From positions 10,542,001-10,606,000 of the forward strand of contig OX485803.1 in assembly GCA_950295325.1 (NCBI GenBank): a DNA stretch of 64,000 bases. The letters are read 5' to 3'. The notes under the pieces are model-generated. The model searched no databases, had not been told where the DNA came from, and saw only the letters and a list, made by a program, of their open reading frames with translations. Of this stretch, positions 11,839 to 57,835 are shown in pieces. The position numbers were made by a program, and so were the translations under genes. The number at the start of each line of letters is the position of its first letter. Position 1 is the stretch's first letter. The stretch is from Polytrichum commune (taxonomy: Eukaryota; Streptophyta; Polytrichopsida; Polytrichales; Polytrichaceae).

Positions 11839-11966
11839 TTAGAGCGTCCCCACCAGCGGAGGTATAAAGCGGTTGAACGGCACTCCTGGAATTACGGTGC
11901 CCGGGACGCCAAGTTGCAACGTCCACCAGTCGACACTAACGCCATAAAGGGTGTCGGGTCGGGCAT

Positions 11967-13025
11967 TTGGGAGGAGTTCTTCGGGTATATTGGCCTCGGG
12001 TACCGTGCTCGCCCCGCCAACGCCATCCGGCAGTTCACCTTTTCTTGGACTTATTCCACCATGTCAGGACGGGGGGGGGGGATGTACCTGCAACGGGTGG
12101 GAGAACCAGGAAGGGCAAGAACTTCTGCCCGGAGGAGGAAGAACAGTGCTGCCGAAGTTTTATGCATACTTCAACAGACTCCAGGAGAGGGATAGGGCAG
12201 AAGAATGCACATTTTTGGATCAATATAGCAACTCACTATGCTAGGCACAAACCAGAGGGAGGAGCTGATCGTGTTGCTAGGTCTCTAGAGACTAAATGGT
12301 CCGACATCAAGCAATTTGTCGCCAAATTCTGTGGTTGCTATCAGTCAGTGAGAGATTTGAATGAGAGTGGGAAAAGTGAGGATGATTTCGTATTAGATGC
12401 TATGACCTTGTACAAGCAAAAATGTGGGAAGCCTTTTGTTCTAAAACATTGCTGGTTGTTGTTAAAGACATATCCTAGGTTTGCAGCAATATTTATGGGG
12501 AAGTGAAAGAGTCAAGGGTTAGATCCGCCCTCAAGAGAGGGGCTGCCTGTTGATCGTCGCGATCTGCTCTCCCCCAATGGCCAGGCCCCCTCCACCGAAT
12601 CGCCACCTGCACAGACAAGGCCACAGGGTGCTAAGTCTTCAAAAATGGAGCATGCACATGGTAAGGGTAAGGAGCAAGCTTTGCGTGCTAATGCAAAAGC
12701 TACAATCGACTTTGCTGCTGCTACATTGAAGAAAACTGAGCAAATTGCTCAGCAAAATACATTTAGTTTGTTTACACTAGAGGATAAGAACATTACCTGT
12801 GACCTTGCTAGACAGTGGCTCCATCTCCGCAGGACCCAAGAGCTTGCAAAGCTCAAGGCCCAGGTTGCTGCCGAGCAAGCTGCCGAGGTTGCTGCCTCCA
12901 ACGTGCCTCCTCCTCCTCGCGTTGGAGTCTGCTCCTCCCCCAACAACACTTCTCCTGCACCTGCACCAACACAAACACAACACCTAGGAAACGTAGGCAT
13001 TGATGAGGACATCAATCTCCTTTAG
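11967..13025 (+). pseudogene. Harbinger ORF1-type Myb/SANT-like protein, interrupted by TGA
   Basis: The supported domain starts near 12100 with GKNFCPEEEEQCCRSFMHTS and continues through QKNAHFW, KWSDIKQFVAKFCGCY, SGKSEDDFVLDAM and the end motif GKPFVLKHCWLLLK. This order is typical of the Myb/SANT-like (NAM-associated) DNA-binding proteins that plant PIF/Harbinger elements encode beside their nuclease and that assist binding to the terminal repeats. A TGA at 12504-12506 breaks the frame. The same frame then continues through a proline-rich linker and an alanine- and lysine-rich, probably coiled-coil C terminus to TAG at 13023-13025. With only one visible defect this copy is young, or the stop may be a polymorphism. 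The exact N terminus is unclear: 11967 is only the first in-frame start. Confidence 0.72.
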
Positions 13026-35308: not shown

Positions 35309-36533
35309 GTGAACTAGAGGAGGGGACAACTTCCGCGTGGGCCACATTTCACACTCGATGCTAGCACTGAGAAGGGAGCGAGCAACAAACCGAGAGACCC
35401 TGCTGTAGATTCGGTGTTTGCGAGTGATTGAAACGCCGAAGCGACTAAGGAAGAATGGGGAGGAGTTATCAACTTAGGATGTCCAGGCTGATAGGACTGA
35501 ATGAAGCGCGACAGGATGATGTCAGGCAAGGAGGATGGCGCCACAAGGTCTTAGTCAAAGGGAGCGAGGCACTGGGTCGGCAACGACTCCCAAAGTCATC
35601 CTCAGTGCTGACCCCCACCAAGCCCTCACCAGCTAAGTTTCTTTTTTTTCTTGTTGTTTTTTGTTGTCAGCGATAGTCACAATAAGTGGTTGCGCTGTGG
35701 GATCTCATTGGGTCGTTGTTGGGTTGCCATTGTGTGTACACAATCACCATTTTGCGAGCAAATGTGGGTGGTTTGGGCTTTAGGGTTCAGGTGAAGGGGC
35801 TGCTTTGGTTGTCTTCTTTGTCACCGCTAAGGGTGGGGGGGACAAGTATGAGTTCATGCTGTCGGAAACCCAATGGTTACAGAATGGCTAAAGTTGTTCT
35901 AGGATAATGGTTAGGCCCTTAAATCATGGACATCAATCTACGTCGTGAGGGGGGAGGCTATGTGCAAGAGGCAACTGTGAGGGATTTTGTTAGTCCGCAG
36001 GGTAGATATAATAATTTATTATACATGGTTCTCTATAAATGTGTAGGAAGGTGAGAGGAATGGGTGCTTGATCTTGCCTGGTCTTGGACACCAATTCATC
36101 AACCCCCCGCACACCGAAGTCGATCTAAACTGTGAGCGAGTGCTAGATTAGTGCACTGAGAACCTTGGTCCAACCCATACCGAGCAGGGTGAGTGAGGAG
36201 ATATGTGTCAGTAGTGAACAATGAGGAGATTGAGAGTTGAGTAATCTTTGATGGGGATGCTAAAAACCTTCAACTCAAGACGGGAATTCCCGCTGGGTAG
36301 GCGAAACTAACAAAAAAAATGGGAAAGAAAAGACTAATCAACTTTCTGGATTCTAGGCCTTTGAATGGTATGTCAACATAATGAAAGAAAAGAAAAATTA
36401 CGCCTGTACATTGTACCGGCATGAATGTGAGCCCGTTATCCAAATGTTTAACACGGCGAGCCGTGTTGTCACATAAGGAGTTATGCCTCTTGTGGGAGGT
36501 GGGCTCTGTTAGTTTGTAATGTTCGGTCCCGTT
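35309..36533. other. Intergenic, nothing recognised
   Basis: About 1.2 kb up to the 3' end of the non-LTR retrotransposon. No supported coding frame. The base composition is balanced, and it switches to strongly G+T-rich on this strand from about 36590, marking the retrotransposon body. No long T run marks a poly(A) tail at the boundary. Confidence 0.45.
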
Positions 36534-37225
36534 TTAGGGTGGTGCGACGGTATTTTGTTTATTGTCTAGTTTTCTTTTGTTAAGTACAAGGTATGTTAAG
36601 TATTTAATGGCATTTTGGTGTATGTTTTTCATGAGAGTTTTGACGTTAGATTTTGGTATTTTGAGGTCCGTTAGCCTTGTGATGGATTGTTCGTGTATGG
36701 CGCCTCTTACGCCGGCTGTGATAGTTATGAGGGGATTTGTTTTCCAGCCTTTGCTCCGTATAGCATTGATTAGTGGGTCGTATTTTGTATGTTTTTGTGT
36801 GAGTGCTTGTTCCGGGAATCTGTCATGGCAATATGTGAATTCAATGAATTGTATTGTGTGGGCGGGTGAGGTTATAAGGGGTGTTGAGGCTTGGTTTGGG
36901 GCTCCTAGTATACAAAGAATGTCTGGTCGTAGTCTTGCTTGGCATTGGCATTGTGCTTGTGGGCATGTGCATTCTAGAAGCCATTCTGGGACCGTTTGTT
37001 GTTGATTTATGTTATTGAGGTTTCCTGCATTTGTTAATGTGTAGTATCTTGTGTGTTTGTTGGCTTGTAGTGTTTGTGTGATGAGGTGAACCGCGTTGTT
37101 GTGGCGGGCTATTCTTAGGCCTTTTAGATAGGGATGTTCGCACATTGATAGTAGATGTGGCCATGTGTCTCTATCATTTTTGTGGCATAGTGTGCAATTG
37201 GGGTTTTGGAATTTGAGGGGCCAAA
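36534..37225 (-). pseudogene. C-terminal CCHC motif and restriction-like endonuclease domain of the retrotransposon
   Basis: The segment has CTLCHKNDRDTWPHLLSMC (C-x2-C-x9-H-x4-C), then about 90 residues later ARLRPDILCILGAP, then IQFIEFTYCHDRFPEQAL with a following lysine (TQKHTKYDPL). A CCHC finger, then R-P-D, then an acidic residue beside a hydrophobic strand, is the pattern of the restriction-like (PD-D/ExK) endonuclease at the C terminus of R2-type and Dualen-type elements. The CCHC alone would not separate this from L1, whose C terminus is similar; the RPD...E pair is the distinguishing part. The stop is at 36534-36536. The join to the RNase H segment needs a frame change in the A/T runs at 37221-37237. 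Confidence 0.6.
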
Positions 37226-38173
37226 AAATGTTTTTTTCTGTGATTACCCATATATTGGGCATATCTGAATTTTAGTGTTTGGGTGATTTGAGCGTCTGTT
37301 ATTTTTGTGTTTTTCCAAAAGTGGTTGGAGAGTTTTTGATTTATATGGTCGTTGGTTAACCATTTTTCTACATATGGAAATTTGTGTTGGGCATGGGTTT
37401 TTTCTCGGTTGGTGTGTTCTTTTAGTATGAATTTGTGAATATTTCTGATAGCTCCATCGTGGGTGGCGGTTGGGCAACTTGCTAGCCAGTACGGTGTGGC
37501 GTGTGCCAGGTGGATGTGTGGGGTGTTGGTTGGTTTTTCTTGGAGGTTTCCTTCGTTGGCTAGTATATCCGCTTTTTCGTTTCCCACAATTCCTGTGTGG
37601 GCTCGTACTTTGTGGATGTGAATGGAGTGTGGGGTCCAATAGATTTGTTGTATTATGGCTGCTATGAGGAGTTTATCGGGGTGGTGATGTTGTGAGGTTG
37701 GGCGTTGTATATGGTTGTTAATTAAGTATATACTGTTAAGGCTATCTGTGAATATGTGTGTGTCCATTTGGGTAGTTTGTATGGTTTTGACCGCTATGAG
37801 CATGGCGTTGAGTTCTGCTCTGAGTATGTTTTGGTATCCCGGTAGTCTCTCTGAGATTTGGATGTCTTGGTGGGGACTATATACTCCGGAGCCGGCCGTG
37901 TTGCCTATTATTTGGCCTTCCGAGTTTTTCGATGGGGGGATGAATGATCCGTCGGTGTATATGCATTGTTGTGGTTGGTATTTAGGGGGGTGTTGGTTGT
38001 AGTATTTATTTGGTAAAGGCATTGGAGTGGGGGTTGTTGTTACGGGAGTATCTATTTTGGGAGCATTTTTCCATGTATTTGAGAATTTGATATGGTAGTT
38101 TGGTGTAGTGGGTTTGATGGGGTAGGTGTCAATGTGTGTGTTAGTGGTTTGTTTTAGTGCGTGTGTGAGTGCC
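37226..38173 (-). pseudogene. Retrotransposon RNase H domain
   Basis: RNase H1-type fold with all four acidic positions present: YTDGSF (first Asp), ILRAELNAML (Glu), IFTDSLNSIY (second Asp) and GNEKADILANEG (third Asp), with histidine in RAHTG before the last. It degrades RNA in RNA-DNA hybrids during retrotransposition. The frame stays open upstream of the first ATG (38022) as far as the C run. About 90 residues after the domain, a segment ending near KFRYAQYMGN leads to the CCHC region. The frame closes at 37174 only because of the shift near 37230. Confidence 0.85.
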
Positions 38174-38191
38174 GGGGGGGGGGGGGGGGGG
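38174..38191 (-). repeat. 18-base homopolymer (C on the coding strand) at a frame change
   Basis: Eighteen consecutive G on the plus strand, read as C in the retrotransposon and as a proline run. The upstream domain and the RNase H domain are each open up to this run but lie in different frames. Gain or loss of one or two bases here would join them. It may be a true mutation, a polymorphic run or an assembly error. Confidence 0.9.
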
Positions 38192-39010
38192 TTGTTAGGT
38201 TCGGTGCTAAATGTGTTTGGCTATGTATACAAATTATTGAGACTAGGGATGGTTCTTCGTAGTGGTAGTATTTTGGCCATTCGGGCGTGGGGTTGTATTG
38301 TATTGTGTGTGGAGGGATAGTGGCTAATATGTGTATGTCTCCCTTTGTTGAGATTGGGAATTGTTGTGGCGTCCAATCATTGTGGTTGATTATGAGGATA
38401 GTTATTGTGTCTATGTCTTCCTTAGCCGCCATACGGGCCCAATGGATGGCTTCTATCGTGGTGTTGTAGTCCGTGGGGTGTGCGAGGCCAATACCTTTCC
38501 ATCTAGAAGATTGGGCATGACCCAAGGAGCCAAAGATTTTATCTCGGTTGTGGGGGGAGTAAAAGTGTGTGAGTTGGGTGGGGCACGTGAGGGGGGATGA
38601 GTAGTATGAGTGTGTGATGTTAAATGATTCTATTAATATCTTGGTGATTGTTGGGTGTAGTGTGTGGTGAAGGTTGTTTGGTAGTGTGTTTTTTGGTTTT
38701 TTCTTAGGAAGGATTGTGATGTATCTTTGTATAAGCCATAGTACTTCTGTTTCAAAATTTTGGGGTGGGGGTTGGATTTCATTGATTAAGTGGGTATGGT
38801 TGTTATGTGAGAATTGATCCCAAAGCCATTGTAGTCTTTCAATGGTAAGGGTAGCCATGTATTTGCCTGAGGAGTCGTATATGTTGGCTTCCGAGGCTTG
38901 TATTTGGATGGTAGGTTGGGTCGTTTGTATGTCTTTATCGGGGTTGCATTCGTGTATAGATAGTGTTAGATTGGTAATTCTTCGGGGTGGGTGTACATAT
39001 TTGTTATCTT
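38192..39010 (-). pseudogene. Unassigned domain between reverse transcriptase and RNase H
   Basis: An open stretch of about 270 codons continuous with the retrotransposon polyprotein after a frame change near 39010; the frame is open from about 39003 although its first ATG is at 38858. The best-looking motifs are FGSLGHAQSSRWKGIGLAHP, EAIHWARMAAKEDIDTITIL and IINHNDWTP. Together they look like an alpha/beta domain with two strand-helix units, perhaps nucleotide- or SAM-binding. I do not recognise it with certainty; I have the impression that similar segments occur beside reverse transcriptases of green algae. The cysteine protease reported for Dualen is not evident here. Confidence 0.5.
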
Positions 39011-41199
39011 TTGTTTGTTTGTGGTTGAGAAAGTTGGTGTATGTTTGTATGTTTTGTTGGGGTGTGATGGTATTGTGTTATGCGTAGTATGTTATGTTCA
39101 AGGAGGATGTTATCTGGGTGAATTAGTTCTTCTTCTGTGCGCCATTGTTGGGAGATTCCTTGTGGTAGTTGCCATTGGCATAGGTACATTCGTTTTATGG
39201 CTTGTGCTCCCCATTTGTCTTTTCGGATGTTGGTTTTGTCATTGATTATTTTTTGGATGGGTTGCCCTAGTGTGGGTTGTGAGGTTATGGTTGGTGTGTT
39301 AGAGGTATGAGGGTCTTGAGGGAGGGACGTGGGTATTGTGATGGTTGGAGTAGGGAATAATATTGTGGCTTGTTGGAGGGCTTCTTTGATGAGTTTTGGG
39401 GCGTGTTTATATTTGGCTTGGAATTCTTGTGGGGTGAGGATGGTTTTTGTGTCGGGGTTTTGGATTTGGGGTAGCGTGGTGATGCCGTATATGTAGAGTT
39501 TATTTAAATATTTTTGGGTTTTGGTTATGGAATTTTCCATGAGGTTGGCGTAGTTGGGATTAGTTGTCCATGTTTGTTCTAAAGGTGTCTTTCTAATGGG
39601 GAATGATCGTTTTGCGGAGGTGACATGTATTTCATATTCCCTCTCGAGGAGAAATAACGTTCGGGCTATGGGCGATCTTATGCATGCTTGTTGCTTGAGT
39701 TTAGGTAGGTGGAGCGAGCCACCATATTTGGCCGTAATATGTTTTGTGAGTCCTTGGTAGATGATGCCTAATTGCCCGGGATCGTTAAGGGCTTGGATTA
39801 ATTGTTGGCCTATGCATCTTACATAGTCCGGTAGTAGGGAAGTTGCATTGATTCCAAAGTTTTCGTGAGGGAGGTGAGTGAGGATATTGGCCGTGCTTTT
39901 GGGGATGTGGCATATGTCTTTGGTTAACTTACTAATTATTTTGTCCAATTTGTTAATGTCCGGTTTGGAAAATGGGACTGCATAGTATGCGTATGCTATG
40001 CGAGGTTTAATGACCGTGTTTAGGATTTTTATTTTTTGTGTAAGGCTAGCCGGTGAGTTAGCTAACAATTGACTTTGTTGTTTGACTTTATTTAATGTTG
40101 CTTCTTTTTGTAGATTCCATTTAAGTGATGGTGTCAATTGTATGCCTAGGTATGTGTAGGATTCATTTTGGGTGAGGATGGGGAAATTTTGTGATTTGTA
40201 CGTGATATATTGGGATTGGATGTAGGCTTTGAAGGTATTGGGCTTGAGTTTAGATTTATTAGGGCACCCGGTGATGGCGCACTTTGAGAGGTTGAGATCC
40301 ATGTAGGACCATTCCGCATATTTTTGTAATTTGATGATTTGTGTTTGAATGTTTTGGATGTTGTCCGTGAGGATGGCTAAGTCATCGGCGTATGCCGTGG
40401 TGGTACACGTAGAATGGGAGGTATTGAAGTGGTATCCTACATCATCTTTCTCTAGCCATGTTAGGAGTGGTTCAAGAAAGATAATGAATAAATATGGACT
40501 AAGGGTGTCTTCTTGTATCGTCCCTCTACTTATTCTTATTGGGGGGGTTGTTCCGAAGTGGCTCCCCGCGAAGGAGGTGGAGGAATTTTCATATATGTTG
40601 CCCACTATTTCAACCGCGTCTAGGGGGTAGCCTACGTCTTCCATTAGGGCGAGGAGACGGGCGTGGTCTATGGATCCAAATGCATTTCGGAAGTCTATGT
40701 AGGTTAAATATATGTCTTGTGTAGTAAGTTTGGCATCTTCTAGGGCCGCTATGATGGTTTGAATTTGGCGTGATGTATTTCGTTGTGGTCGAAAGCCTTC
40801 TTGGCTAAAGTGGAGTAATCTATGTTGCTCTCCATAGTTCGTTAGTAATGTGGTTAGTGTGCTTGTGTAGAATTTATAGATCGTGTTGGCTAATGCTATT
40901 GGTCTATAGTTGGCTAGGTGGGTCGGGTCGTCTTTTTTGTGTAGTAATATTGTTTTACTGTGTTTCCAATGGTGCGGGATTGTCTTTTGTTTGTAACAAT
41001 GGGTAAAGAAGAGGAAAAGGAGATTGTACCATTGCAGTGGGAGTGCTTTGAGTATGTCATTAGGAATGTTATCCGGGCCGGGGGCTTTCCCTCTTGTTAA
41101 TCGCTTGATGCAACAATCGTATATTTCTCTAGTAAATTGGTAGGTTATTTGTGTATTTGGGGGGCCTCTCTTATCTAGGATGAAGCCTTGTTGTGAATG
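39004..41199 (-). pseudogene. Retrotransposon reverse transcriptase
   Basis: Non-LTR reverse transcriptase, which copies element RNA at the nicked target. Motifs in order: KAPGPDNIPNDILKALP, ANYRPIALANTIYKF, SQEGFRPQRNTSRQI, YIDFRNAFGSIDHARL (first catalytic Asp), RGTIQEDTLSPYLFIIFLEP, TAYADDLAIL (YADD at 40392-40381) and YTYLGIQLTPSLKW (thumb). In the B motif the usual IQGD or PQGD glycine is glutamate, which would probably harm activity. The frame is open for 730 codons after the TGA at 41202-41200; its first in-frame ATG is not until 40644. The C-terminal part (thumb and connection) runs to TAA at 39004, just past the point where the next domain continues in another frame. Confidence 0.92.
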
Positions 41200-41254
41200 T
41201 CATGGATATTTACGGACTGCACATGTGTATGTGTTTGGGTGGTCCGTGACGTCA

Positions 41255-42327
41255 TCATATAAAGGGGTTTGTCTTTGAAATGATTGTTGTTGTGTGTGGT
41301 ATATTTCTTGGGCTATGTCTTGGGGGGTTGACAAGAATTTGTCCGTGTATATTTTGGAGGCAATCTAGGGAGTTGTTGGTTGTCGGGTTAAATATTTTTT
41401 TGTGGATGGTTTTGGGTTTGCTATTAAGTAGGGCTCTATATTTTGTAATGGTTATTTTACAATTGGTAGATGTTTGTTTAGTGATGATTTTGTGGGCTTC
41501 GTTCTTGGCATTTTTACCGATCTTGGCGAGTTCTTCTACCCAATTATGTAAGTCCACGGGGTTGGTAGGTAATGGTGGGATATTAGGTGCTTGGATTAAT
41601 TGAAGGGATATGATGTCCGGTTCGTTGTGAAGGTGGGTGAGGGGGTATTGACATGTGGCTCTTATGGCTTTGCGAATGGTATGGTGTGCTTTTAGTAGTC
41701 GTTTCCATTTCTTTTGTTGCGTTCTAGGGAGGAAACCTCCTTGGTTCTTGATTCTATTAGGTAAGGGCGGGGTAGGTTTTGTCATACAAGTGTGTTCAAT
41801 ACATCGATTTAGGGAGGCGATGATTGATTGAAGTGTAGTTTGTGCGTTCTCCCATTGTGTGCGTGTGAGGTGATCATGTTGGAGAATTTTTGTGAGGTCT
41901 TCTATTGCTAAGTTTTGTTTTTCTAGGAATGTGATTTGTAGGGTTTGGAGGCTTTTGGGGGGTATGGGATATGTGATACGAGGTTGGTTTGTGGGTGTAT
42001 TGTGGTCTTTGATGATTATGCTATTTGGGTTTAGTTGGAGTTGGACCGGGTAGTGGTCCGAGTTTTGGTTGAGGTTAGTTATTGTATGGCTTATGAGATT
42101 TGGAGTGTGGGAAGTGTTAGTGTAAAAACCATCTATGTGACTTGTGGATGTGTAGTTGTGGCCTCCTTGTCTTGTGAGTGATTGTGGGTTAGGAACCGCC
42201 TTGAGGTTGTTGGCTTGTGTGAAGCGGGCCCATTCTTGGTCGTTGTGGTTGGGTGGTGTAGGGATGCCATTATATATTCTACCTTTGAGTAAAATATCTC
42301 GATTGAAGTCTCCTCCGATCCTAATAT
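41255..42327 (-). pseudogene. AP endonuclease C-terminal half and linker to reverse transcriptase
   Basis: After the frame change near 42320 the segment opens with GGDFNRDILLKG, then TSTSHIDGFY and QNSDHYPVQL. These are the last three motifs of the AP/exonuclease III-type endonuclease (GDFN, SxID, SDH). A linker follows with RIKNQGGFLPRTQQKKWKRL, up to a second frame change near 41365. Between there and the TGA at 41202-41200 the coding continues in another frame (YDDVTDHPNTYT). With the N-terminal half in the preceding long frame, all catalytic residues of the nuclease remain recognisable. Confidence 0.85.
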
Positions 42328-45300
42328 TGTTTGGTGATTAGCGTATTGGGTCATGAGGGTAACGATATGATTTTGAATGTCCGGTATAAGGTGTATGTCT
42401 TGGGGATGTGTTGGCATATACATATTTAATAGAAGTATTGGTGTTAAGGGTTTGTTGTTGATTAGGATGGCTTGGAGGTATGGTGATATGTGACTCGGGG
42501 TTGGGATTTTGGCGATGTTTTCGTTTGTATATATTGATTTGGGTATCATGGTAAGTATGTCACCTCTTGTTTGTGTGGGTCCGGAGTATCTATTATGTTT
42601 TTGTGTCATGTTGTTGGAATTGTTGTATATTAGTTTGTAGTTTTGTAGTTGGCGGTCTATGTATGATGTGGATTTTGTTTTTGGGATTTTGGTTTCTTGG
42701 ATAAGGATGATGTAAGGGTCTGGGTGCAATTTTCTTGTTAACTCTTGGATACCGGGTAGGCTAGTGCTAATGCATCCGGTATTCCAGGTGATTATGTTTA
42801 AGGTTTGAGTTTGGGGGTTGTTTGGTCTTATGTCACTAGGTGGTGTGTGTTGGTTGTTTGTTGGTCGTGTGGTAGGGTGGTGTCCTAGTATAGGTTGGGT
42901 GCATTTGGTTAGTTCTTGTAATATTTTTGTTGGGAGTTGAGGTAGTTTTGTCCTTAGATTATTTAGAGTTATAGGTATTCCTCTGGCTATTTTGTCATTA
43001 ATGTTGGAGTATGCTTGTGTTATGGTTGTTGTGGTGGTGTACATGAGGGGGTAGTTATTTATGTGTGTTGGTGTTGAGTGTGTGTCTATGGGAAGTGCTT
43101 GGAGTCTCCTTAGGATGGTTAGGTATCTTGGGTCTAGTTTTGTGGTCATTAATTGGTTACAAACTTGTGGTAGTGGGCTATATACTATTATGAGTGCATA
43201 TCGTATGTGGTGTGTTGGATATTGTGAGAGGAGTAGACTATGTGTTCGCAGATGTGTTAGTGCTAGATTTTGGGGATTAGTGGTGGTGTGTGAAAGATGA
43301 GGTTCGAATAGTTTTTCTAAGTGTGTGTATTGGGGTTTGGGTGTTAATGTGTTGGGTAGGAAGTATTGTTTTTGTCTTTTTGTATATGCTTGGGGAAGAT
43401 TCCTGAGTATGTTGTATATTGGTCCCGGGTTAAGTTGGATGTCTCCGCTCAAGAGGATGAGTATAGAGTTATTCCATGTGTAATATTGTATGGGTTTGTT
43501 TTTAGAAGTTTTGAGGTGTGAGTATGTTAAATTGTGGTTCTCATATCTTGTGTTAGGGTGGTATTCCCTTATAGGTTGTGTAAGGTTTATGTTGATGTGT
43601 GTTTGAGGACCCGGGTTTGTTTGTATATCACCACCTAGTAGGATGATTATTGAGTTGTTCCATGTGTAGTATTTGATGGCCTTGCTTTTGGGTTTTTTAA
43701 GATTGATGTGGGTTATATGTTGAAAGTTGCCTATGTATGTTATGGTATTGATGGGTATGATTGGGGTTTCAAGGTATATTAGTGGTATGGTTGAAAGGGT
43801 GTTTATTGTGTTGTGCTTGTTGTTGTGGTTATTATATGGTGAAGTAGTGGAGGCTTTGTGATGTGAGTGAATGTAAGTGATTATATCCGAGGATTGTGTA
43901 TATTGGGTAGTAGGAGAGTAACTAAGTCCTATTATGATCATGATGCTTATTGTTGCTAGTTTGTATATGTGGTGTGGTAGGTTGGACCGTTGGGCAAATT
44001 GCTTATTGGAATTAGTATGTGTGTGTTTTTGGTGGGAGGCATTGTGTATGTGGGTGTGAGTTTTTGAGTGAATCCGAATTGTGAGTGTAGACTCTTTTTT
44101 ATAGAGATAGTAAAAAAGACAATACATATAGTATAGAATGGGTTTTGCGTGTAAATTCCTCATAGAGGTTGGAGGGGAGTGGATGCGAGTTGTGTAAATG
44201 AGAAATAATATTTTCTCTTTATTATATAGAAAATACAAAATACAACATATAAGGGCTATGGACCATTGATGGTGTTGCATGTGGCTACTATCCATTAAAG
44301 TTGTTTGGTCCTTGATGGTGAATTTGTGGGTTACCGTGTAAGCCCGGGGGGCTTGGAGGGGGAGTGGTGGGGCAGTCACATTGTGTCCTTGCGGTAGCGG
44401 GGGTTGGGCGGTCCTTTGTAGGATTTCCGGTGCGGCGGCGGAGAGGCCGTTAACTAAACCTTGCATACGAAGGTTTGATTGTTGGAATTCGTGAGCAATC
44501 GTCCCGAAGAGCGCTTGGAGGTTGGCGGTGTGATGTGTGATCGTTGCCGTAGTCGCCTCGAACCTCTGGTCCGTGTGGTTGTTGATGGAGGTGGTTAGTG
44601 TGCCAAACTTTTCATCCAACTTGTCTTCGAGCTCCTTCATGGTTTTGGTGAGGTACTTTTCGGTAAGGGGAGGGTGAGAATTCGTGGCATTGCTCATGGC
44701 TTGGATTTTTTCCGCTATCACCTCCCGCACGGGTGCTTGTGCTAGTCGAATTGCCATTTTGTTGGGGTCCGTGCCGTCGATGCTTCCACGATGTGGGATG
44801 AAGTTGACACGTCGTCCAAGGATGTAGGTAGATTTGTGAAGCCACTCCGTGTAGACCGCGGTGTTGAGGCATTGTATATGGCACCAACCCGCTTGCTTGT
44901 CGGTGTGGGGTGGGTTGTTGTTGCCGAAGCTAATGCCCACTATGTTGTCCGCTCCAAATGTGTGCTTGATGACCTTTGAGATGGTAATTTGTGTCTCTCG
45001 TTGTGGAAGATTGTTAGCAATAAGTGTGGTGCTAATGCGGAGCTCCGATGGGTTGCCGCCGCCTCGGTCGCGGGTGATGCTAACTTGGAGTTTCTCATGG
45101 TTGTAGGTGAGGCCCTCCGTTAGTATGTTGTCTCTTGCTTCTTCCGTGGTTAGGGTGAGAAAAACATAGTTCTTATCTATCTCCGGTTTAGTAAGCCCCA
45201 TAAACTCATGTTGCTTGCCTATGTAATAGCTCTCATGTACTAACTTTTCAAAGATATTGAATGCATGCTCATGACGGAGGGTCTCCCCTTTAAGGTGGAG

Positions 45301-46185
45301 GCGAAGATTGCTAGCCTTTGTGACTAATTCATATATTTTCTCTACTTTGCCTATCATCTTCTCTCCATCATCCATTTGCATGACAAATGCTCGGTCACCT
45401 CTAAGGAGTGCTAGTCCATCTTTCTTGGGGTGGAGTAAGTGCACTTTTATGAAGCCCGCCCAATTCTTGGTAACGGCATTGATTCCTATGTCAAGGGGGT
45501 TAGAGTACGTGTTACCAAGTGGGATGTCCATTTGTTGAAGCCGTTCTAGACATGCACTCCTCGCCTCGTGTCGACTAATCTCCTTGAAGCCGTGGTCGAA
45601 GCGGATGGTGATGTGGAAACCTTCGGATAGGCTGGTGGTTGGGTCGATCTTTTCTTGTCTTGGTACTTGGGTGAAGTGGAGGTGGTGTCCCGGGACCGCA
45701 TCCGGTCTCTCGTTCGGGTAGCACATTTGAGGTACGTGGGGGAATGCCCTACGGATGGTGCGGAAATCAAGAATCTCCCTTGAAGGGGTCCCATTCTTAG
45801 TGAACTCCTCATTGGTGCGTGACTCTCTTATGATATCGGCTCCGCTATGTAGTGCCATGGCCTCATGAATCGGGAAGCCTAGCCACATATGTGATACGAT
45901 GTCAATGCTTGGGATTGCTTCTTTTCTCCGTGTGCTTTGTTGCTTGCTCGTGTCGGAGTTGAATGTGTGTTCACCCATCTCGCTCTTCCTTCTTTTGGCG
46001 CTTTGAGTGTCGGTGGTTTTGGTCTTGTGTATGGATGTCGGGGGGGTCCTATCGGCTAGGTTGATGGCGTCTAGACGTGACATCGGTATGGCGGCTTGAT
46101 TGGGGGTGGCCATGTAATCGTCTCTTGATGTTGAAAGTTGAAGTGAGCTCCCTCCGTGCTCGGGGGAGACATCAACTAATTGCAT
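42133..46185 (-). CDS. Retrotransposon ORF1-2A-2A-endonuclease polyprotein, 1350 codons
   Basis: The longest open frame of the window. Residues 60-90 are basic. Residues 383-466 look like an RRM-type fold (RISTTLIANNLPQRE, then AGWCHIQCL and GRRVNFIPH). Residues 508-575 form a likely coiled coil, so residues 1-620 resemble a non-LTR ORF1 protein that binds RNA as an oligomer. Residues 641-708 hold two related aromatic, hydrophobic units (ILYFLYNKEK and CLFYYLYKKE). Two 2A-like motifs end at residues 860 and 922 inside a duplicated 62-residue module. The AP endonuclease starts near 1129 (LNIITWNTGC, ILIQETKI, LLLNMYMPT). After residue about 1286 the frame is shifted, so the final 65 residues are not native. 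I infer that the 2A sites would release the ORF1 protein, a short 62-residue peptide and the enzyme part. Confidence 0.8.
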   Translation of the reverse strand: MQLVDVSPEHGGSSLQLSTSRDDYMATPNQAAIPMSRLDAINLADRTPPTSIHKTKTTDTQSAKRRKSEMGEHTFNSDTSKQQSTRRKEAIPSIDIVSHMWLGFPIHEAMALHSGADIIRESRTNEEFTKNGTPSREILDFRTIRRAFPHVPQMCYPNERPDAVPGHHLHFTQVPRQEKIDPTTSLSEGFHITIRFDHGFKEISRHEARSACLERLQQMDIPLGNTYSNPLDIGINAVTKNWAGFIKVHLLHPKKDGLALLRGDRAFVMQMDDGEKMIGKVEKIYELVTKASNLRLHLKGETLRHEHAFNIFEKLVHESYYIGKQHEFMGLTKPEIDKNYVFLTLTTEEARDNILTEGLTYNHEKLQVSITRDRGGGNPSELRISTTLIANNLPQRETQITISKVIKHTFGADNIVGISFGNNNPPHTDKQAGWCHIQCLNTAVYTEWLHKSTYILGRRVNFIPHRGSIDGTDPNKMAIRLAQAPVREVIAEKIQAMSNATNSHPPLTEKYLTKTMKELEDKLDEKFGTLTTSINNHTDQRFEATTATITHHTANLQALFGTIAHEFQQSNLRMQGLVNGLSAAAPEILQRTAQPPLPQGHNVTAPPLPLQAPRAYTVTHKFTIKDQTTLMDSSHMQHHQWSIALICCILYFLYNKEKILFLIYTTRIHSPPTSMRNLHAKPILYYMYCLFYYLYKKESTLTIRIHSKTHTHIHNASHQKHTHTNSNKQFAQRSNLPHHIYKLATISIMIIIGLSYSPTTQYTQSSDIITYIHSHHKASTTSPYNNHNNKHNTINTLSTIPLIYLETPIIPINTITYIGNFQHITHINLKKPKSKAIKYYTWNNSIIILLGGDIQTNPGPQTHININLTQPIREYHPNTRYENHNLTYSHLKTSKNKPIQYYTWNNSILILLSGDIQLNPGPIYNILRNLPQAYTKRQKQYFLPNTLTPKPQYTHLEKLFEPHLSHTTTNPQNLALTHLRTHSLLLSQYPTHHIRYALIIVYSPLPQVCNQLMTTKLDPRYLTILRRLQALPIDTHSTPTHINNYPLMYTTTTTITQAYSNINDKIARGIPITLNNLRTKLPQLPTKILQELTKCTQPILGHHPTTRPTNNQHTPPSDIRPNNPQTQTLNIITWNTGCISTSLPGIQELTRKLHPDPYIILIQETKIPKTKSTSYIDRQLQNYKLIYNNSNNMTQKHNRYSGPTQTRGDILTMIPKSIYTNENIAKIPTPSHISPYLQAILINNKPLTPILLLNMYMPTHPQDIHLIPDIQNHIVTLMTQYANHQTILGSEETSIEIFYSKVEYIMASLHHPTTTTKNGPASHKPTTSRRFLTHNHSQDKEATTTHPQVT
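43420..43446 (-). other. 2A-like motif 2 (GDIQLNPGP)
   Basis: Second copy, 62 codons downstream of the first, preceded by NNSILILLS. The preceding residues YYTWNNS occur in both copies, so the whole module was duplicated. The site lies about 207 codons before the endonuclease domain. Confidence 0.8.
43606..43632 (-). other. 2A-like motif 1 (GDIQTNPGP)
   Basis: Codons for GDIQTNPGP, preceded by a hydrophobic NNSIIILLG. The 2A consensus is D-(V/I)-E-x-N-P-G-P; only Glu to Gln differs, a change I recall in 2A-like sites of animal non-LTR elements. In working 2A sites the ribosome fails to join the last Gly-Pro pair and continues, giving two proteins. Confidence 0.8.
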
Positions 46186-47451
46186 GTCGATGTCTTAGTC
46201 TTGTGATGGAGAGGCCTTCTCCTTCAAATTAATGGGTTGGCTTGCTTGTTGGTCATTGTCTCTCTCCTCCTCTTCTTCACTATAGCTCTCTAATAGGGCT
46301 CTCCTTCGGGATCCGCTTCTTGTCTTCACTCCTTCACTGCTCCTAGTCTCTATGCCCATGGGTCTGCTCCCGGTTCCACTAGCCGTTCGGGTGCCTAGCC
46401 TGAGCCTGTTTAATCGATTCCCTGGCCTGGCTCCGGAGTAGTGCTTGCCGGCATTCTAGAGCCCTACCCCTTCCTGGATGCCCTCGGTGCCTCCTTCCTG
46501 GCCGCCTCCTTCTGGTCCCCTCCCTCTGGTGTTTTCGGTGCGGCATTCTCCCTGGCCGCCTCCTTCTGGTCCCCGACTCCGGCTAACTTCGGTGTTGGGA
46601 GCTCTGCCGTCGCTCCTGCCTGTGTGTCGATCTCTGTGCTGTGAATCTTGGGTTTTCTGTGGAGCTCCTGTGCTGGGGCCGCCTCTGGTTCGGACTGTTG
46701 CTCCGTCCATGCTCATTGTGGGGAGATCTTGAAGCTCTGTATTGGGGGCCATGCTGACTTGTGGGAATGAGTGAGGAAGATGAGTGAGAGGGTGTTGAGG
46801 GGATGGGGGTATTTGAGTGCTTGGGTGTGGTGTAGCAGGTGAGTGGCTGTTTGTGATTTTTGGGCATGTGAATTGGTTTGTGAGGTGGGCTTTGGGTGCA
46901 TCGGCATTGTTGGGGGTTTGTGTATGTCTTGTGTGTTTTTTGGTGGTTTTCTTACAGGGGAGCTGCTGGGCCTTTTCTAAATGGAGAAGCAAGAGGCTCC
47001 GATGTGATTTTTTTGGAGGTAAGTTTATAGATAGTTTGTTTCTTGTATTTTGGTGATTTTTGGTGGAGGTGAGGGTTTGGTGAGTGCTTGTGGTTTTGCT
47101 TACCATTGTGTGTGTGGGCTTGTGTTGTGTGGGTGATGGTGGAGACATTGGCGTGCATGTGGTGCAATCCGATCTTGGAGGTGGCTCTTGGTGGACGCTT
47201 GAGGGTGGGGTTGTGAGGATTGATAGTGGGGAGAGGTAGTTTGATGAGTGATTTTGTGGTTTTGCCTTTGGAGGGGAGGAGTGGTAGCTTGATGGAGGTG
47301 TTGAGTGTTGGAGGTAGTGTGGTAGGTAGACTCTTGGGTAGAATTTTGATGAGTGAGCATTGTAGATTATTGAGTGGTAGCTTCTTAGTGGGTAGATTGT
47401 AGGTGGTGCCTTTGGTGAGTGATAGCTTGGTGAATAGAGAGTGTGGGTAGG
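46186..47451 (-). other. 5' region of the retrotransposon, low-complexity
   Basis: About 1.3 kb upstream of the long frame with the same A+C bias on the minus strand. An open frame runs here (46456-47490) but begins inside the neighbouring LTR-like element and is rich in Pro, His, Thr and Ser with a short RGPEGGGQ repeat. Direct repeats of ggccgcctccttctggtccc lie near 46500 and 46555. It is probably the 5' untranslated and promoter region, and coding is not supported. Confidence 0.45.
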
Positions 47452-48096
47452 TGTGAGCCCAAAATTGATGCCCACATTGGTTGTTAACACTTGTAAAACA
47501 TTACAAGTGGTGTTTTGGTGATTTATGATTATTCACAAAAATATAAAAAGAGTGAAGCTTGAAGAAAATTTTGTTTGAAGCATTAGGCTTTTGTGGAGTG
47601 GATTTAAGTAGGAGAAGGACAAACCTTGGTAAAGTGTGGTAGGTAGAAAACCAAGGTTAGTTAAATGTTTGAATTAGGATCCTTGTTGATCATTTGAGGG
47701 AGGAAGGCTTAGGAGATAGGATAAGAGCCTACAAAGTAGGAGGAAATCTCGAGGGCTTATCGTAAGCCTTGAGGGTGCTCACCCCCTCAAACTCACTATA
47801 TAATCCCTCATTCTTCCCTCACTTATCCTCTCTTTCCTTCGTACTCCTTGACACTCCACGTGTTATAAGTGTGGGTGAGTGGAAAGCAAGATAGGAGCAC
47901 GTGTGTATGTATGGATGTAAGGTTAGGAGCCAAAGCTAGTTGGCCTTGAAGAGGGCTTGACCTCTTGTTAGTAATAGTTGGGCGTGAATGATTTAAAGTT
48001 CAATTTATGGCTTTGTTTGAATACTTGGATTTACATTGATTAGCCTTATACTTATGCGGATGTGCAAAGTCTCTTATTGGAGCATTTAGTTTTGTT

Positions 48097-48535
48097 GGAC
48101 TTCATATGAATTTTTGAGAGCCAAAAAACCGAGACTATGTCCAAACTTCCAAAAACTAGTGAAAAAGTATAGATTCAAAGGGAACAGCGTAGAATTGCGA
48201 CCATATACTTTGTGGCAGTAGAAATATTATTGCATATTCATGTACAGGACTTCATTACCTATCCATGGATACCAAGAACTCATTTTTTGGACTTCATATG
48301 AATTTTTGAGAGCCAAAAAACCGAGACTATGTCCAAACTTCCAAAAACTAGTGAAAAAGTGTAGATTCAAAGGGAACAGCGTAGAATTGCGACCATATAC
48401 TTTGTGGCAGTAGAAATATTATTGCATATTCATGTAGAGGACTTCATTACCTATCCATGGATATCAAGAACTCATTTTTTGGACTTCATATGAATTTTTG
48501 AGGGCCAAAAAACCGAGACTATGTCCAAACTTCCA
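48097..48535 (+). repeat. 192-bp tandem repeat, 2.3 copies
   Basis: Units start with ggacttcatatgaatttttg at 48097, 48289 and 48481. The first two are full length and nearly identical (a handful of substitutions, for example tgtacagg against tgtagagg). The third stops after about 55 bases. Confidence 0.97.
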
Positions 48536-48545
48536 AACTTCGAGA

Positions 48546-49600
48546 TTAAGGAGTGTAAGAAGACATAGTATAGACTTGGCTAAGTTGCGTATATTCCAAC
48601 GATAGATTGGAATCATACATTGTGTTACAAAGAGAAAAATCTCTACATGTCATTATAAACTTCTCCATTCGGGCTAAGACGAAATTGAAGGGTGGAGGCT
48701 TTTTGGTGACAGTAGGTATTGATGGGAATGTATTGTGGTGTGTGCAAGCATACAAGATAATGGTGCTTATGAGCACCCATTTTGTAAAGAAGAGTGAAAC
48801 CCTATTTGTGTTGATGGGTGTTGGTGAAGCTTCGCTCCTTCCTTCCTTGCCTCTTAAGTTTAGATCTAGGCTTTTGCTCCTGTCTCCGCTGCTATGGTGT
48901 CTTGTTTCGACCTCTTGGAATATACTTGCCCTACTCTGTTGATCTGCTTGCTTCGGGCGTCGGTGGGCGCCGCTTAGGGTTGTTACTGGCTCCTGTTTCG
49001 TTCGGCCATTCGGCTCTGGTTCTCTTCTGTTCTGCTCCGGCTTTCTCCTGGCTCTCTCCGGCACTCTTCTGTCGCTCTCCGACGCTCCCCTGGTTGCGCT
49101 CTCCTGGCTCTCTCTCATCGCCGCCTCCCCGGCATCATGAAAGATGAATGACAACAACGCTCCCAGGGCCGCTTTACACCTAGAGGCCGGGCCAATTCCC
49201 CTTGAGGCCAATTGCATGAAATTTCAGCCCAACATAATGATGCCTAACTGGTCCGGCCGAATGGACAAGGACAGAGGGCAAGACACCACTCGGTGAGTTG
49301 CGCAAGGCACTAATCCTGTAGGGTTGCTTTTGTCATGATTGGCACTAGTATTATTAATTAGTTGGCAGTCCATAAAGAGTGTGTTGTGAATGCAGGTTGA
49401 AGCGGGGGGAGCGAGGCAAACTAGGTGCGAGGTTCGGTAGTGCTGGTAGTCACTGGACATCGCAAAGGCCGCAGTTGAAATTCCAGGATTGGGACCGCTG
49501 CTGGAGTTAACCGGTGGTGATTGTTGTTGTAGCCAAACGGGGAAACAGTGGAAGCTTGTAGGCTTAGATTGTAGGGCCATGGAATTGTTGTAGGGCAGGG
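48546..49600. other. Unassigned stretch inside element A
   Basis: Open frames exist on both strands (48546-49217 minus, 48607-48942 plus) but none has a motif. The pyrimidine-rich block 48990-49135 (repeated ctctcctggc / ctccgg(c/a)) explains the long frames. I would not call a gene. Confidence 0.4.
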
Positions 49601-50509
49601 GTTAGTGGGAAGGGATAGACTGCCATACGTGAAGTTTAACAGTAGGCAAGGAAAGGAGTTGGGGAGGTTGAGTGCCTCATTGACTTGGTGTTTGGTTCAA
49701 GAGTTTCCAAGTGCTACCCAAGTATTTGTGAATGCTTGCACACCTTAAATAAAAGGGTGTTATACACACCACTTCACTCACAATTGAATGGAATGAAGAT
49801 GCATGTGTAAGTGATGACCTAGGATGTGTGAAGAAGGATTCCCCACCCGGACTAGGACGCATTCAAGGGGAGGTAAGGATTCTTGCTCACAAGAGGCTTT
49901 GCAAGTTGAAATCAGTGATGGCTTGGACCGAGTCCTTGGAGAGCTAGTGGACAAGACAAAAACCAAAATACAGGGAGGAGGGGAAGAAGGGGGGATATAT
50001 GTAAGCACCAATATATATATGCAAAGCACAGTTACACACAACCAAAAAAACTATCCCAAGAAAGTTTATTTATATTTTGTTTGAGTGTTATGAGCCCAAA
50101 ATGAGTGCTCATATTTGTTTTATGTTTAGAATTGCAATTAGAGTGTTATTCAAACAATCAAAAGTTTAAAAAGAGTGAGGCTTGGTGTGGATTTATGTTT
50201 AGGCCTTAAGCCATTTTGTGTGGTGAATTAAAAGCTTAGTGACATTAGGGAGTGTTTTGATTAGAGGAGTAGTGCTTGATGAGGCAAGGGGAAGTGCCTT
50301 TGACTTAATTGTTTGAATTAGAACGTGTTCTTGTTGGTTTAGGAGGTAATGAGTTAATGAATAGGATAAGGTCCTACTAAGTAGGAGAAGGCTAAGGAGG
50401 TTGTGGTTTGGGTGCCCTCCCTCCTTCCTTCCTCCTCTCTCTCATTCTCTCTCTCCCTCTTGGAGGTGTGTGTGTGGGAGTGTGTATGTGGTGTAGTGTG
50501 TTAGAGAAT

Positions 50510-50951
50510 AAATTTGATTAGGGGGAAGTTAGAGAATAGGTTTGATTAGGAGGAAATTAGATAATAGATTTGAGTAGGGGGACTTAGAGGATAGATTGGA
50601 TTAGGGGTAGTTTAGAAGATAGATTTGATTAGGAGGAGCCTAGAAAATCATATTATTAAGGTTGCAAGGCTTATTGGGCAACTGCCGGTTGTGGGTTGAG
50701 GTTGCAAGGTTTATTGGGCAGCTGCAGCTACTGTTTTAAGGTTGCAAGCTTACTGGAGCAGCTGTCGGCTACGGGTGAGGTTGCAAGGTTTACTGGGGCA
50801 GCTGCAGCTACTGTTTTGAAGCTGCCGGCTACTGGTAAGGTTGCAAGCTTACTGGAGCAGCTGCCAGCTACGGGTGAGGTTGCAAAGTTTACTGGGGTAG
50901 CTGCAGCTATTGTTTTGAGGTTGCCGGCTACTTGTGAGATTGCAAGGTTTA
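50510..50951 (+). repeat. Tandem arrays in element B (left part)
   Basis: First a short array of gattaggggg(a)-ag-tagataatagattt-like units (50515-50640), then units of about 60 bp built on gaggttgcaaggtttactgg, ggcagctgcagctactgttt and cggctacggg. The open frame 50696-50956 merely reads through this repeat. Confidence 0.85.
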
Positions 50952-51689
50952 TGTGAGCCCAAAATGGCGCTCACATGTGTTCTTAACCCTTCAAAACCAT
51001 TAGAAGTTATGTTTTGATGTTTTATGATTATCCACAAAAATATAAAAAGAGTGAAGCTTGAATAAAGTTATGTTTAGTCATTAGGCTAGTGTTGAAAGGA
51101 TTTATTAGAAGTAGATAGCGTGAAGAAGTTCCTTAGTTAGGTGAGCGTAGGGAGTGGTGAACCAAGGGTAGTTCATTGGTTTAAATGTTTGAATTAGGAT
51201 CTATGTTGTTAATTTAAGAGACAAAGGCTTAGAAGATAGGATGAGAGCCTACAAAGTAGGAAATGATTACAAGGGCTTATTTTGAGGGTGCTCACCTACT
51301 CCCTCTCAACTCACTATATAAACCTTCACTTTTCTTTCTCTCATCATCTTTTCCTTCGTGCTCCTTGGCACCCCACGTGTTATAAGTGTGGGTGTGGAAA
51401 GCAAGAACGGAGCACATGAGCGTGCAAGGTCTCAAGGTGAAGAACCAAGACTAATTCACCTTGAAGTTAGTTTGACATTTGTTAGGAGTAGTCTTTGGTT
51501 GAGACATTTAGAGCTTAGCTTGTTGTATGTGACTTATAGAATTTAAATTCATGATATTTAGATTTATAGTGTTTGGAATCATGACATTTAGAATTGTAGC
51601 ATCCACATTCATGTTGAATTTAAAGCTCTCTCTCTCCTCTAAGAAGTTGAGCTCTTAGAGCTTTGGGAAGTACAATGTTTAGTCAGAGG

Positions 51690-51875
51690 GTAGGTTGCTG
51701 GAAATACAGTATTTAGTTGTTGGAAATACAATATTTAGTTGTTGGAAATACAGTATTTAGTTGCTGGAAATACATTGTTTAGTCAGAGGGTAGGTTGCTG
51801 GAGATACAATATTTAGTTGTTGGAAATATAATATTTAATCGGAGGGTAGGTTGCTGGAAATACAGTATTTAGTTC
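51690..51875 (+). repeat. Short tandem repeat in element C
   Basis: About seven units of (g)ttg(c/t)tggaaatacagtattta, some with the insertion gtcagagggtagg. The array lies downstream of the hairpin, the same relative place where the other family members carry their own, unrelated arrays. Confidence 0.9.
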
Positions 51876-52151
51876 AGAAATTAGACAACTGGGACATTAG
51901 ATTGGGTCATAGTTAGTTAACAAGAATATTACCTAATGCTAATTATGTTATGAGCATTTAGCTAAGGGGTTGACTACAAGACATTATAAGGTGATATCAA
52001 GGGGGAAAACTTGTAATTAAGTTGTTGGGATTGTAATCAAGCACTTAAAGGTGCCATGGCGAAGAATGAACGAACTTGGGAGTGAATGACGAAGAATTGC
52101 GGAAGAGGATGTAACGCTAAGTGATGAGAGTAATGAGTGTTTTTTTAACAC

Positions 52152-52346
52152 TTGTGTGCTCATCACATGGAGTCAACAAATCACAACTTCAGCGAGGTGA
52201 TGAACACTAGTGAAGAATCAACGGCCAGAACTAAGGTTTCAAGAAGGAAGTCTTTAAGAGCATGTGTAGCTAAGGCCGTGGGATGGACCCTTGAGGCGGC
52301 CAATGCTATGCCCACTCAAGAAAATTACATTAATAAAACATCATGA
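52152..52346 (+). CDS. Small conserved open frame in element C, 64 residues
   Basis: Function unknown. The central part reads ESTARTKVSRRKSLRACVAK followed by AVGWTLEAA. The small frame in element D (58111-58323) has the same core, ESTART..RR..SLRACVAK..GWTLEA, but the codons differ at many third positions (tct/tcc, aga/agg, gca/gct, aag/aaa, acc/acg, ctt/tta, gag/gaa, gcg/gca), with only an AV/VA swap in the core. That pattern indicates selection on the protein at some time in the ancestry of these elements. The core is basic with an amphipathic look and one cysteine. The start at 52152 is simply the first ATG; the flanks of the core are not conserved. Confidence 0.6.
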   Translation: MCAHHMESTNHNFSEVMNTSEESTARTKVSRRKSLRACVAKAVGWTLEAANAMPTQENYINKTS

Positions 52347-52475
52347 CTTAAGAGAAGTTGAGGGTTCATTGAGATGGGACTTATATCTTATGTTGCTACT
52401 TTTGGTGTGACACATGTGAGTCTCAAAACCATCACCCGGACTAGGACGCTTAAGGGTGGTAGGTTTGGCCTCACA

Positions 52476-52670
52476 GTTTACTGAGCAGCTGCAGCTACTG
52501 TTTTAAGGTTGCAAGCTTACTGGAGCAGCTGCCGGCTGCGGGTGAGGTTGCAAGGTTTACTGGGCAGCTGCAGCTACTGTTTGAGGCTGTTGGCTACGGG
52601 TGAGGTTGCAAGGTTTATTGGGGCAGCTGCAGCTACTGTTTTGAGGCGGCCGGCACTTGTAAGGTGAATT
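52476..52670 (+). repeat. Tandem array in element B (right part)
   Basis: Continuation of the 60-bp-type array of element B after the nested element C: gtttactgagcagctgcagctactgttttaaggttgcaag and further units. The unit sequence matches 50695-50951, so the two halves were one array before element C inserted. Confidence 0.9.
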
Positions 52671-53053
52671 AGTAGGGCAACTTCAAGGCTTAACGCTAGG
52701 CCTTTAGTGACTTGGGTAGATGATTAAGGAGGAACCTTATTGATAATAAAGGGAGAAGCCGTAGTGCTATATTGGACTAAATGATAGTTAGTTGATTGGG
52801 TTGTTACTTAATGTTACTTTAGATAATTAGTTCATTAGTAAGATAGTAGAACAGGAGGTGAGGATTGTGATGATAGAGAAGAGCGTTTGTCAACGCTTGT
52901 AATATTATCGTGGAATGGATTGGTGTGCAATGATTAATGAGGAAATGTGATGGGTTTTTACGAATTGGCAAGAGGGAGTTATGTAAACATGAATGTGATC
53001 CCCATTCCCTCACCCGGACTAGGACGCTTAAGGGTGGGCGGTTTGGCCTCACA

Positions 53054-53465
53054 AGCATACAACTCTTTGTACATGTAGTCTTCTAGAATTCATTTTAGCG
53101 TGCCTCAATCGCTCATCAATAATACAAAAACAATTACACTCAAGACAACAATTGTGAACTTTCAATGCAATATATTACAAAGATTTTACCCTTAACAAAT
53201 ACAATGTGATTGACTATAAGCTCAAACCACCCGACCATAGGAGAGAGATAAAAGAAAGATCCCCTCTCCTCCCCCAAGCTCTCTCTTATATCCCACAAAG
53301 AGACTCCTAGTCTTATCCATCTTTATTCATAGTATCTAATAGATACTTTCAGAAGTCTCAAGTCATACTAAACTTAGATCCAAGTTCCCTTATCTATATA
53401 CATAAATCATTTCACCGTATGATTTGTCTAATTCCAACTTGATTCATTCATCCAATATTCTTGTT
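53054..53465. other. Intergenic, nothing recognised
   Basis: About 400 bases between element B and the hAT-like MITE. No coding frame or repeat seen. Confidence 0.45.
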
Positions 53466-53875
53466 CACGGGGAGGTCACTTCATTGTCAAGTTGACACCA
53501 CGTGCGGACAAAGTTTGCTACCCCTATATTACATGCCATATATATTTTTTAAATTTATGATATTTTTTCTACATATACATAACCATTGATAGTATCTTTT
53601 GTATATTTTTTTGAAATTTTTAGTCATCTTAATTTTTTTTAGTAATTTTTTTAGTTCAATTTTGTGTCATTCTAGTTAGAAACGGTATGTTTTATGAAAA
53701 AAATAAATCACCAAATTTAGTTACCACTTTTGACTATGTCATAGGTCCTGTGTATATCTACTCATGAAAAAAAATTGATAAAATTTTGACCCATTTTGGT
53801 GGTGCAACTTACCAAAAGAAGATTTTTTTTGGTCGCACGTGGTGTTCAACTTGACAATGGAGTGACCTACCCGTG
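53466..53875 (-). mobile_element. hAT-like MITE, 410 bp, 8-bp duplication TTCTTGTT
   Basis: Inverted relative of 34890-35300, about 90 percent alike by eye. The ends are CACGGGGAGGTCACTTCATT and, read inward, CACGGGTAGGTCACTCCATT. TTCTTGTT flanks both sides (53458-53465 and 53876-53883). The intact 8-bp duplication shows an independent insertion. Confidence 0.93.
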
Positions 53876-53883
53876 TTCTTGTT

Positions 53884-54157
53884 GGAACAGTCTAATTCCA
53901 ACTTGATTCATCTATCCATTAAGAGTTGACTAACTCCAATGAATAACATCCATCCGCTAGGAGTTGTCTAACTCTAGTTCATATCTTCTAGTTGGAGTTG
54001 TCTAACTCCAACACAAAGATCTTCCATCAAGAGTTGTCTAACTCCCGCGCACAATATGTCTATGGGATATCTAGCCCATTTCTTCCTCTAGAGTTGTCTG
54101 ACTCCAATCACCATTTGCTCACATGCTAAATACATTAAAGCATGATTAGTCATCAAA
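53884..54157 (+). repeat. Interspersed gagttgtct(a/g)actcc phrase
   Basis: The phrase gagttgtctaactcc or a close variant recurs at about 53990, 54030 and 54082 with spacing near 40-50 bases, together with related taattccaacttgattcat sequence near 53890. It is a degenerate local repeat without coding potential. Confidence 0.6.
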
Positions 54158-57559: not shown

Positions 57560-57835
57560 ATTACAACTACAAAGTTGTGGGTTCATGAAGGAGCTGGGTT
57601 TGTTTAGTTAGAAAGTAAAGAGCTGGGTTTATGAAGGACCTGGGTTTGTTTAGTTAGAAGCTAAGGAGCTGGGTTCATGAAGGAGCTGGGTTTATGAAGG
57701 AGCTGGGTTTATGAAGGAGCTGGGTTTGTTTAGTTAGAAGCTAAGAAGCTGGGTTTATGAAGGAGCTGGGTTTATGAAGGAGCTAGGTTTATGTAATTAG
57801 AAAGTAAAGAGATGGGTTCATGAAGGAGCTTAGTA
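57560..57835 (+). repeat. Tandem repeat in element D
   Basis: Units of tgaaggagctgggttta with occasional tgtttagttagaaagtaaag inserts, about twelve in all. Like the arrays of the sister elements, it lies between the conserved hairpin and the small open frame. Confidence 0.92.

Follow-up and report, generated by a model that had tools for sequence, protein, structure and literature searches.

2A-like sequences have reportedly been found (Heras 2006; Odon 2013) in L1Tc-type trypanosome elements and in animal APE-type non-LTR elements, in which they presumably lie near the enzyme part. Multiple in-frame 2A-NPGP sites of variable number have been described in picornaviruses of the Paavivirinae, located before the replication proteins at a plastic point and separated by tracts of approximately 50-150 amino acids that have no matches outside related viruses (PMC11512398). 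A study on sea urchin NOD-like receptors describes an N-terminal 2A signal sequence with a hydrophobic lead that tested as active in both mammalian and plant cells (PMC4981915). Besides, a 2026 survey found nothing to indicate that plant viruses naturally use StopGo, though StopGo works in plant cells (PMC12846837).

An earlier note on the DNA studied here reported two 2A-like motifs with a spacing of 62 codons, both of which follow YYTWNNS and a hydrophobic lead. A scan of the six frames of the window (i.e., the whole stretch of 64,000 nucleotides analysed) found both as described, on the minus strand, with GDIQTNPGP at 43632-43606 and GDIQLNPGP at 43446-43420, and with I/L-rich residues between YYTWNNS and each NPGP motif. 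With their leads, they form the modules 2A1 (YYTWNNSIIILLGGDIQTNPGP; 43606..43671, minus strand) and 2A2 (YYTWNNSILILLSGDIQLNPGP; 43420..43485, minus strand), and the inter-2A segment of 62 codons (P...G; 43423..43608, minus strand) is predicted to be released as a peptide. Two further NPGP motifs in the window (57635-57646 and 63924-63935) have a stop codon a few residues upstream of each. From the ATG of the second open reading frame (ORF2) to the second 2A, a distance of 876 nt, the coding frame has no stop, the two alternative frames have 19 and 18, and an open frame of the same length was obtained in 0 of 500 dinucleotide shuffles. When the two 22-codon cores (YYTWNNS...NPGP) were compared, 13 synonymous differences at 15 synonymous sites and 4 nonsynonymous differences at 51 sites were found, against 16.1/19.5 and 35.9/76.5, respectively, for the 32 codons preceding the cores. 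These values indicate that the core peptide has been kept, and not the DNA or the lead-in. Since the two modules seem to be of different history, selection would have acted on each of them in its own lineage rather than on the two jointly.

The frame holding both motifs (46194-42133, minus strand; 1353 amino acids) had been taken as a single frame of 1350 codons, which is misleading, as its length of 1353 codons is due to a fusion of ORF1 and ORF2 in this copy. The 3' part of ORF1 (44291..46194, minus strand; frame of P0001), which is less G-poor than ORF2, is similar to the ORF1-type relatives P0018 and P0019, and these terminate shortly past ...PLPLQAPPGF. The ORF1 tail of the relatives (PPGLHGNPQIHHQGPNNFNG, with two stops, ending in FNG) lies in the window in a different frame, just downstream of a run of C (44346..44351, minus strand) at which the ORF1 frame is lost by a one-base length change and ORF1 becomes fused to the ORF2 frame. 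The ORF2 ATG (44295-44293) overlaps the stop TAG of the ORF1 tail (44290-44288) within 44288..44295 of the minus strand (ATGGATAG / AUGGAUAG), and the leaders of P0024, P0025, P0007 and P0006 align starting at this methionine. The 2A pair is thus located within ORF2, after a leader of approximately 220 residues, and it does not join ORF1 to the enzyme part in one normal frame, as previously supposed, because the ORF1 relatives stop after a tail that is framed elsewhere here. A native polyprotein with the order ORF1-2A-2A-enzyme was ruled out on the same grounds, i.e., an ORF1 tail and stop in another frame. As far as P0018 and P0019 show, the fusion would be a feature of this copy. Translation of ORF2 would start, presumably by reinitiation, at this AUG within the overlap; in other systems, including the non-LTR element SART1, stop and start codons that overlap or lie close together serve coupled reinitiation (PMC5972666). 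In P0053, too, an ORF1-like tail seems to continue into a leader; judged by eye, its single frame holds an ORF1-like tail, a leader, a piece from the middle of the post-2A domain, a second leader with a 2A and then the beginning of yet another leader, an order that points to heavy reshuffling or to a chimaeric contig.

Downstream of the ORF2 ATG on the minus strand, the leader (43633..44295; approximately 220 codons before 2A1) has a second half in common with P0020 (57/81 identical, z 30, 100 shuffles). The second 2A is followed by a conserved unannotated domain of approximately 207 codons (42802..43422), an interval with no Pfam match in P0006, P0008, P0010, P0014 and P0028. Next lies an AP-type endonuclease region with linker (41258..42801), frameshifted near 42330, which matches P0006 across two frames. 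The broken endonuclease frames of the window have no Pfam match, and PF03372 and/or PF14529 exceed the cut-off in P0006, P0008, P0010 and P0028. Frames for the reverse transcriptase (39007..41199; PF00078, E 5.4e-28) and RNase H (37177..38220; PF00075, E 7.1e-17) follow, and the element runs on in broken frames to the last long frame, which ends at 36534. The window element appears to be a decayed non-LTR retrotransposon, with a broken endonuclease and further frame breaks. A reverse transcriptase together with an AP endonuclease in ORF2, as in APE-type elements, is found when RVT_1 and RNase H of the window are taken with the endonuclease Pfam families of the relatives; the best PDB matches of the reverse transcriptase are R2 proteins, a match that does not place the clade (L1, I, Ingi, CR1 ...). 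The search for target-site duplications found no exact word of at least 12 bases common to 35901-36540 and 46801-54000.

Some further observations were made on this element. A PF12237 PCIF1_WW match, unexpected in a retrotransposon, lies between the reverse transcriptase and RNase H (38508-38774, minus strand; E 4.5e-8, 33.3 bits versus a cut-off of 31.1), in a frame with 0 PDB sequence matches; we take this family to be one of cap methyltransferases. The ORF2 strand is very G-poor (7-12% G, up to 42% A, with 21% G in ORF1; 37177-46194, minus strand), and the GC skew of the plus strand reaches 0.58. Upstream of ORF1, several direct repeats approximately 3.5 kb apart (47459-47961 and 50958-51476; 70-93% identical) may represent a duplicated 5' region or the remains of an earlier copy, and a tandem repeat of 192 bp (2.3 copies, 98% alike) is found at 48091-48537.

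Outside the element, the window has a GST exon whose matches include several chains labelled as phi-class or GSTF. A CCB1-like exon matches over 28 residues (E 8.2e-5, below the curated cut-off). We assume both families (GST phi-class/GSTF and CCB1) to be typical of plants, and with these plant nuclear genes in the window, the DNA looks plant-derived. Two long frames at 62557-63846 (minus strand), one of them with a weak BED zinc-finger match under the cut-off, have by eye the look of a hAT-type transposase. Frames at 11940-13025 (plus strand) have a weak NAM-associated match under the cut-off, and are, in our judgement, reminiscent of plant trihelix or PIF/Harbinger-type genes. The Rfam search gave 0 hits and the tRNA scan 0.

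Three protein searches yielded 50 relatives (P0006-P0055) on contigs of about 1.3-27 kb, P0018 and P0019 being of ORF1 type, so that relatives and window frame together gave 49 ORF2-type proteins, which were scanned with a site pattern that tolerates changes in NPGP. At least one 2A-like site is present in 35 of the 49 proteins, and NPGP is intact in 38 of the 43 sites; the other 14 proteins start at or past the site, and in P0033 and P0044 the sequence near it is altered. In the predicted proteins of the relatives, some of which are cut short, the last site starts anywhere between residues 4 and 616. The distance from the last 2A (Pro) to the endonuclease motif ITWN is 205-218 residues in all 25 measurable proteins. 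The search words included the 2A region, so site-bearing proteins may be overrepresented, an effect not expected for the constant distance. Viral contigs searched with the reverse transcriptase and with the profile gave 4 and 31 pattern-matching stretches, respectively, and genome contigs searched with the profile gave 35, with 0 relatives by tblastn in each case. The presence of 2A-like motifs in a retrotransposon of plant-like DNA is upheld; the motifs are conserved in relatives, with more than one site in 7 of the 35 site-spanning proteins.

Both window sites have the core D-I-Q-x-N-P-G-P, which agrees with the canonical StopGo core D(V/I)ExNPGP except for Q instead of E at position 14 (PMC12846837). 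According to this survey, H14 is >95% active, E14Q is cited at 56% or 26% activity, and viruses have almost exclusively E at this position, with Q under the survey's threshold (PMC12846837). Among the 43 sites of relatives and window, position 14 is E in 17, Q in 15, H in 10 and K in one. Upstream, IIILLGG-D and LILLSG-D, with L-rich residues and (S/G/C)G before D, resemble by eye StopGo motifs 2 and 6, for which the survey gives an L-rich lead and (A/S/C)G before D12 (PMC12846837); in 2A1, the place of the A, S or C is taken by G. The residue before the G of position 11, itself fixed by the search pattern, is S in 16, G in 13, C in 11, H in 2 and R in one of the 43 sites. Skipping at the window sites is likely, perhaps partial at the Q sites, and a series of two partly active sites would release more enzyme than a single site. 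An arrangement of weak (Q14) sites one after the other could also determine how much of the enzyme is free and how much leader-anchored.

The reduced activity of E14Q and the hydrophobic lead would also suit motifs that are kept for another reason, e.g., because the hydrophobic run acts at a membrane or as a signal, with skipping weak or absent. We consider this very improbable, as NPGP is kept in most sites and position 14 is E, Q or H in 42 of 43, H being highly active in the published tests. No alternative function of NPGP is known to us in such a setting. The hydropathy peak of the window leader is reached by 48 of 300 shuffles of that leader, so that the targeting function proposed earlier for the hydrophobic lead remains putative. 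In 7 of 17 leaders the peak is reached by at most 15 of 300 shuffles, and P0014, P0022 and P0030 are without a peak above the listed level; leader hydrophobicity is therefore suggestive only.

Two or three sites are stacked in 7 of the 35 proteins, i.e., the window, P0020 (three sites), P0021, P0022, P0027, P0028 and P0029. At least two intact NPGP motifs are present in five of these seven; the second site of P0022 is NPAP, and both sites of P0027 are changed. The spacing of 62 codons is not fixed, since stacked relatives have sites 85-234 residues apart (P0020, 85 and 128; P0021, 191; P0028, 140; P0029, 233) and P0006, the nearest enzyme relative, has a single 2A. As the relatives are on short contigs, chimaeric assembly or dead copies could account for some of the stacking. 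P0020 and P0028, which come from separate contigs, have both the joint (58/130) and the enzyme (87/128) in common, which argues against an assembly chimaera there. Segments following a 2A match the enzyme N-terminus in 7 of 9 tested (best of four references, 0/500 shuffles); the first segment of P0020 is weaker (5/500 shuffles) and that of the window is not significant (42/500).

In P0021 and P0027, leader-2A units are repeated with 116/180 and 101/146 identical residues (z 52 and 42), and these stacks look like direct duplications. The window pair might likewise have arisen by local duplication of a leader-2A unit inside the element's own lineage, and an old event of this kind would also leave near-saturated synonymous change. 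This is unlikely for the window, where site 1 is closer to site 1 of P0020 (38/41) than to window site 2 (25/41) and the enzymes of the two elements are distant (38/117); on these site identities and enzyme distance, in-place duplication was rejected as the main account of the pair. Protein self-BLAST for internal repeats gave no off-diagonal hits, and segment-against-segment alignment was used instead. Leader-start repeats seen by eye in the window and P0006 scored 47 and 50, respectively, and did not exceed the best of their shuffles (50 and 53); those tried in P0050, P0023 and P0053 failed the controls as well.

The affinities of the window ORF2 switch between the two 2A sites. The second half of its leader together with 2A1 is 94/121 identical to P0020, against only 38/117 for the enzymes, and its enzyme is 125/136 identical to P0006, with leaders far more diverged yet detectably alike (46/148). 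Window site 2, the site of this enzyme lineage, is closer to P0006 (30/41 upstream, 36/40 downstream) than to P0020 site 1 (25/41), and P0020 site 2 is outside its 14 best matches. Across the inter-2A segment, identity to P0006 rises from 11/40 to 24/40 and 36/40 in successive stretches. The enzyme tree comprises 43 of the 49 rows, P0022, P0027 and P0029 having been removed by hand and P0053-P0055 being too short, and has SH-aLRT as the only support. In it, the window groups with P0006 at 100, and P0020, which fills 35% of the columns, groups with P0028 at 93 within the other main clade (100). The module tree of 41 columns resolves little, with 3 of 39 branches starred.

We regard it as probable that the locus is a decayed non-LTR element with a skipping 2A in ORF2, in which the pair results from a leader-2A module joined upstream of a resident 2A. 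The module of the other lineage would most likely have joined just upstream of 2A2, an order and direction of exchange that we infer from the identities, with the 62-residue segment as the joint. The free peptide, which the earlier note expected to be released if the pair is active, is then probably a joint remnant left between the incoming leader-2A and the resident 2A, as the identity to P0006 shifts across it. It might instead be the functional product of a dedicated tandem 2A cassette between leader and enzyme, given that both cores are intact and in frame and that P0020 also has two close sites behind a similar leader; window ORF2 residues 110-293 align with both of these family-1-type sites (124/184, one 23-residue gap), so that the two-site layout may be, at least partly, older than the switch near 2A2. 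The variable spacing in stacked relatives, the single site of P0006 and the shift of identity inside the inter-2A segment make such a cassette quite unlikely.

The ORF2 product would begin with a leader of low conservation, which is followed by a 2A-like site and then by an enzyme polyprotein (unannotated domain, endonuclease, reverse transcriptase, RNase H). The ribosome would most likely skip the Gly-Pro bond at the 2A, so that leader and enzyme separate and the enzyme always begins with the same Pro. With the leader cut loose, leaders may be lengthened, exchanged and stacked without harm to the enzyme. We tentatively propose, as an idea that may well prove wrong, that the 2A acts as an evolutionary insulator that frees the enzyme from its upstream part, with leader-2A modules being swapped between distant families and stacked. 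The resulting ORF2s would carry one, two or three natural StopGo sites, and a plant genome would hold at least one such ORF2.

2A sequences in non-LTR elements and multiple 2As in picornaviruses (PMC11512398) are already known. In the literature searched, which did not extend to some key 2A papers, we found no plant retrotransposon described as having stacked 2A sites; the plant-like setting, the stacking in a retrotransposon ORF2 and the exchange at the 2A boundary were not met there. Genomic elements that keep one or sometimes several 2A sites in plant-like DNA would be a natural plant-side source of the motif, with E, Q or H where viruses have almost only E, and would show modular recombination made tolerable by a protein cut at the joint. 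Compared with the L1Tc-type and animal APE-type elements, the present one is alike in having a 2A-like site in a non-LTR element, and appears to differ in its plant-like host DNA, its several sites per ORF and the leader exchange at the 2A boundary. The sea urchin receptors share an N-terminal 2A with a hydrophobic lead, but are cellular immune receptors with N-terminal 2A-like sequences of 26 residues (PMC4981915), whereas the leaders found here are much longer and any targeting by them is putative. The Paavivirinae (PMC11512398) resemble our elements in their variable number of in-frame 2As with intervening tracts; those are animal RNA viruses, while here a retrotransposon is concerned, and the segment behind an upstream 2A retains part of the enzyme N-terminus in the majority of the stacked relatives.
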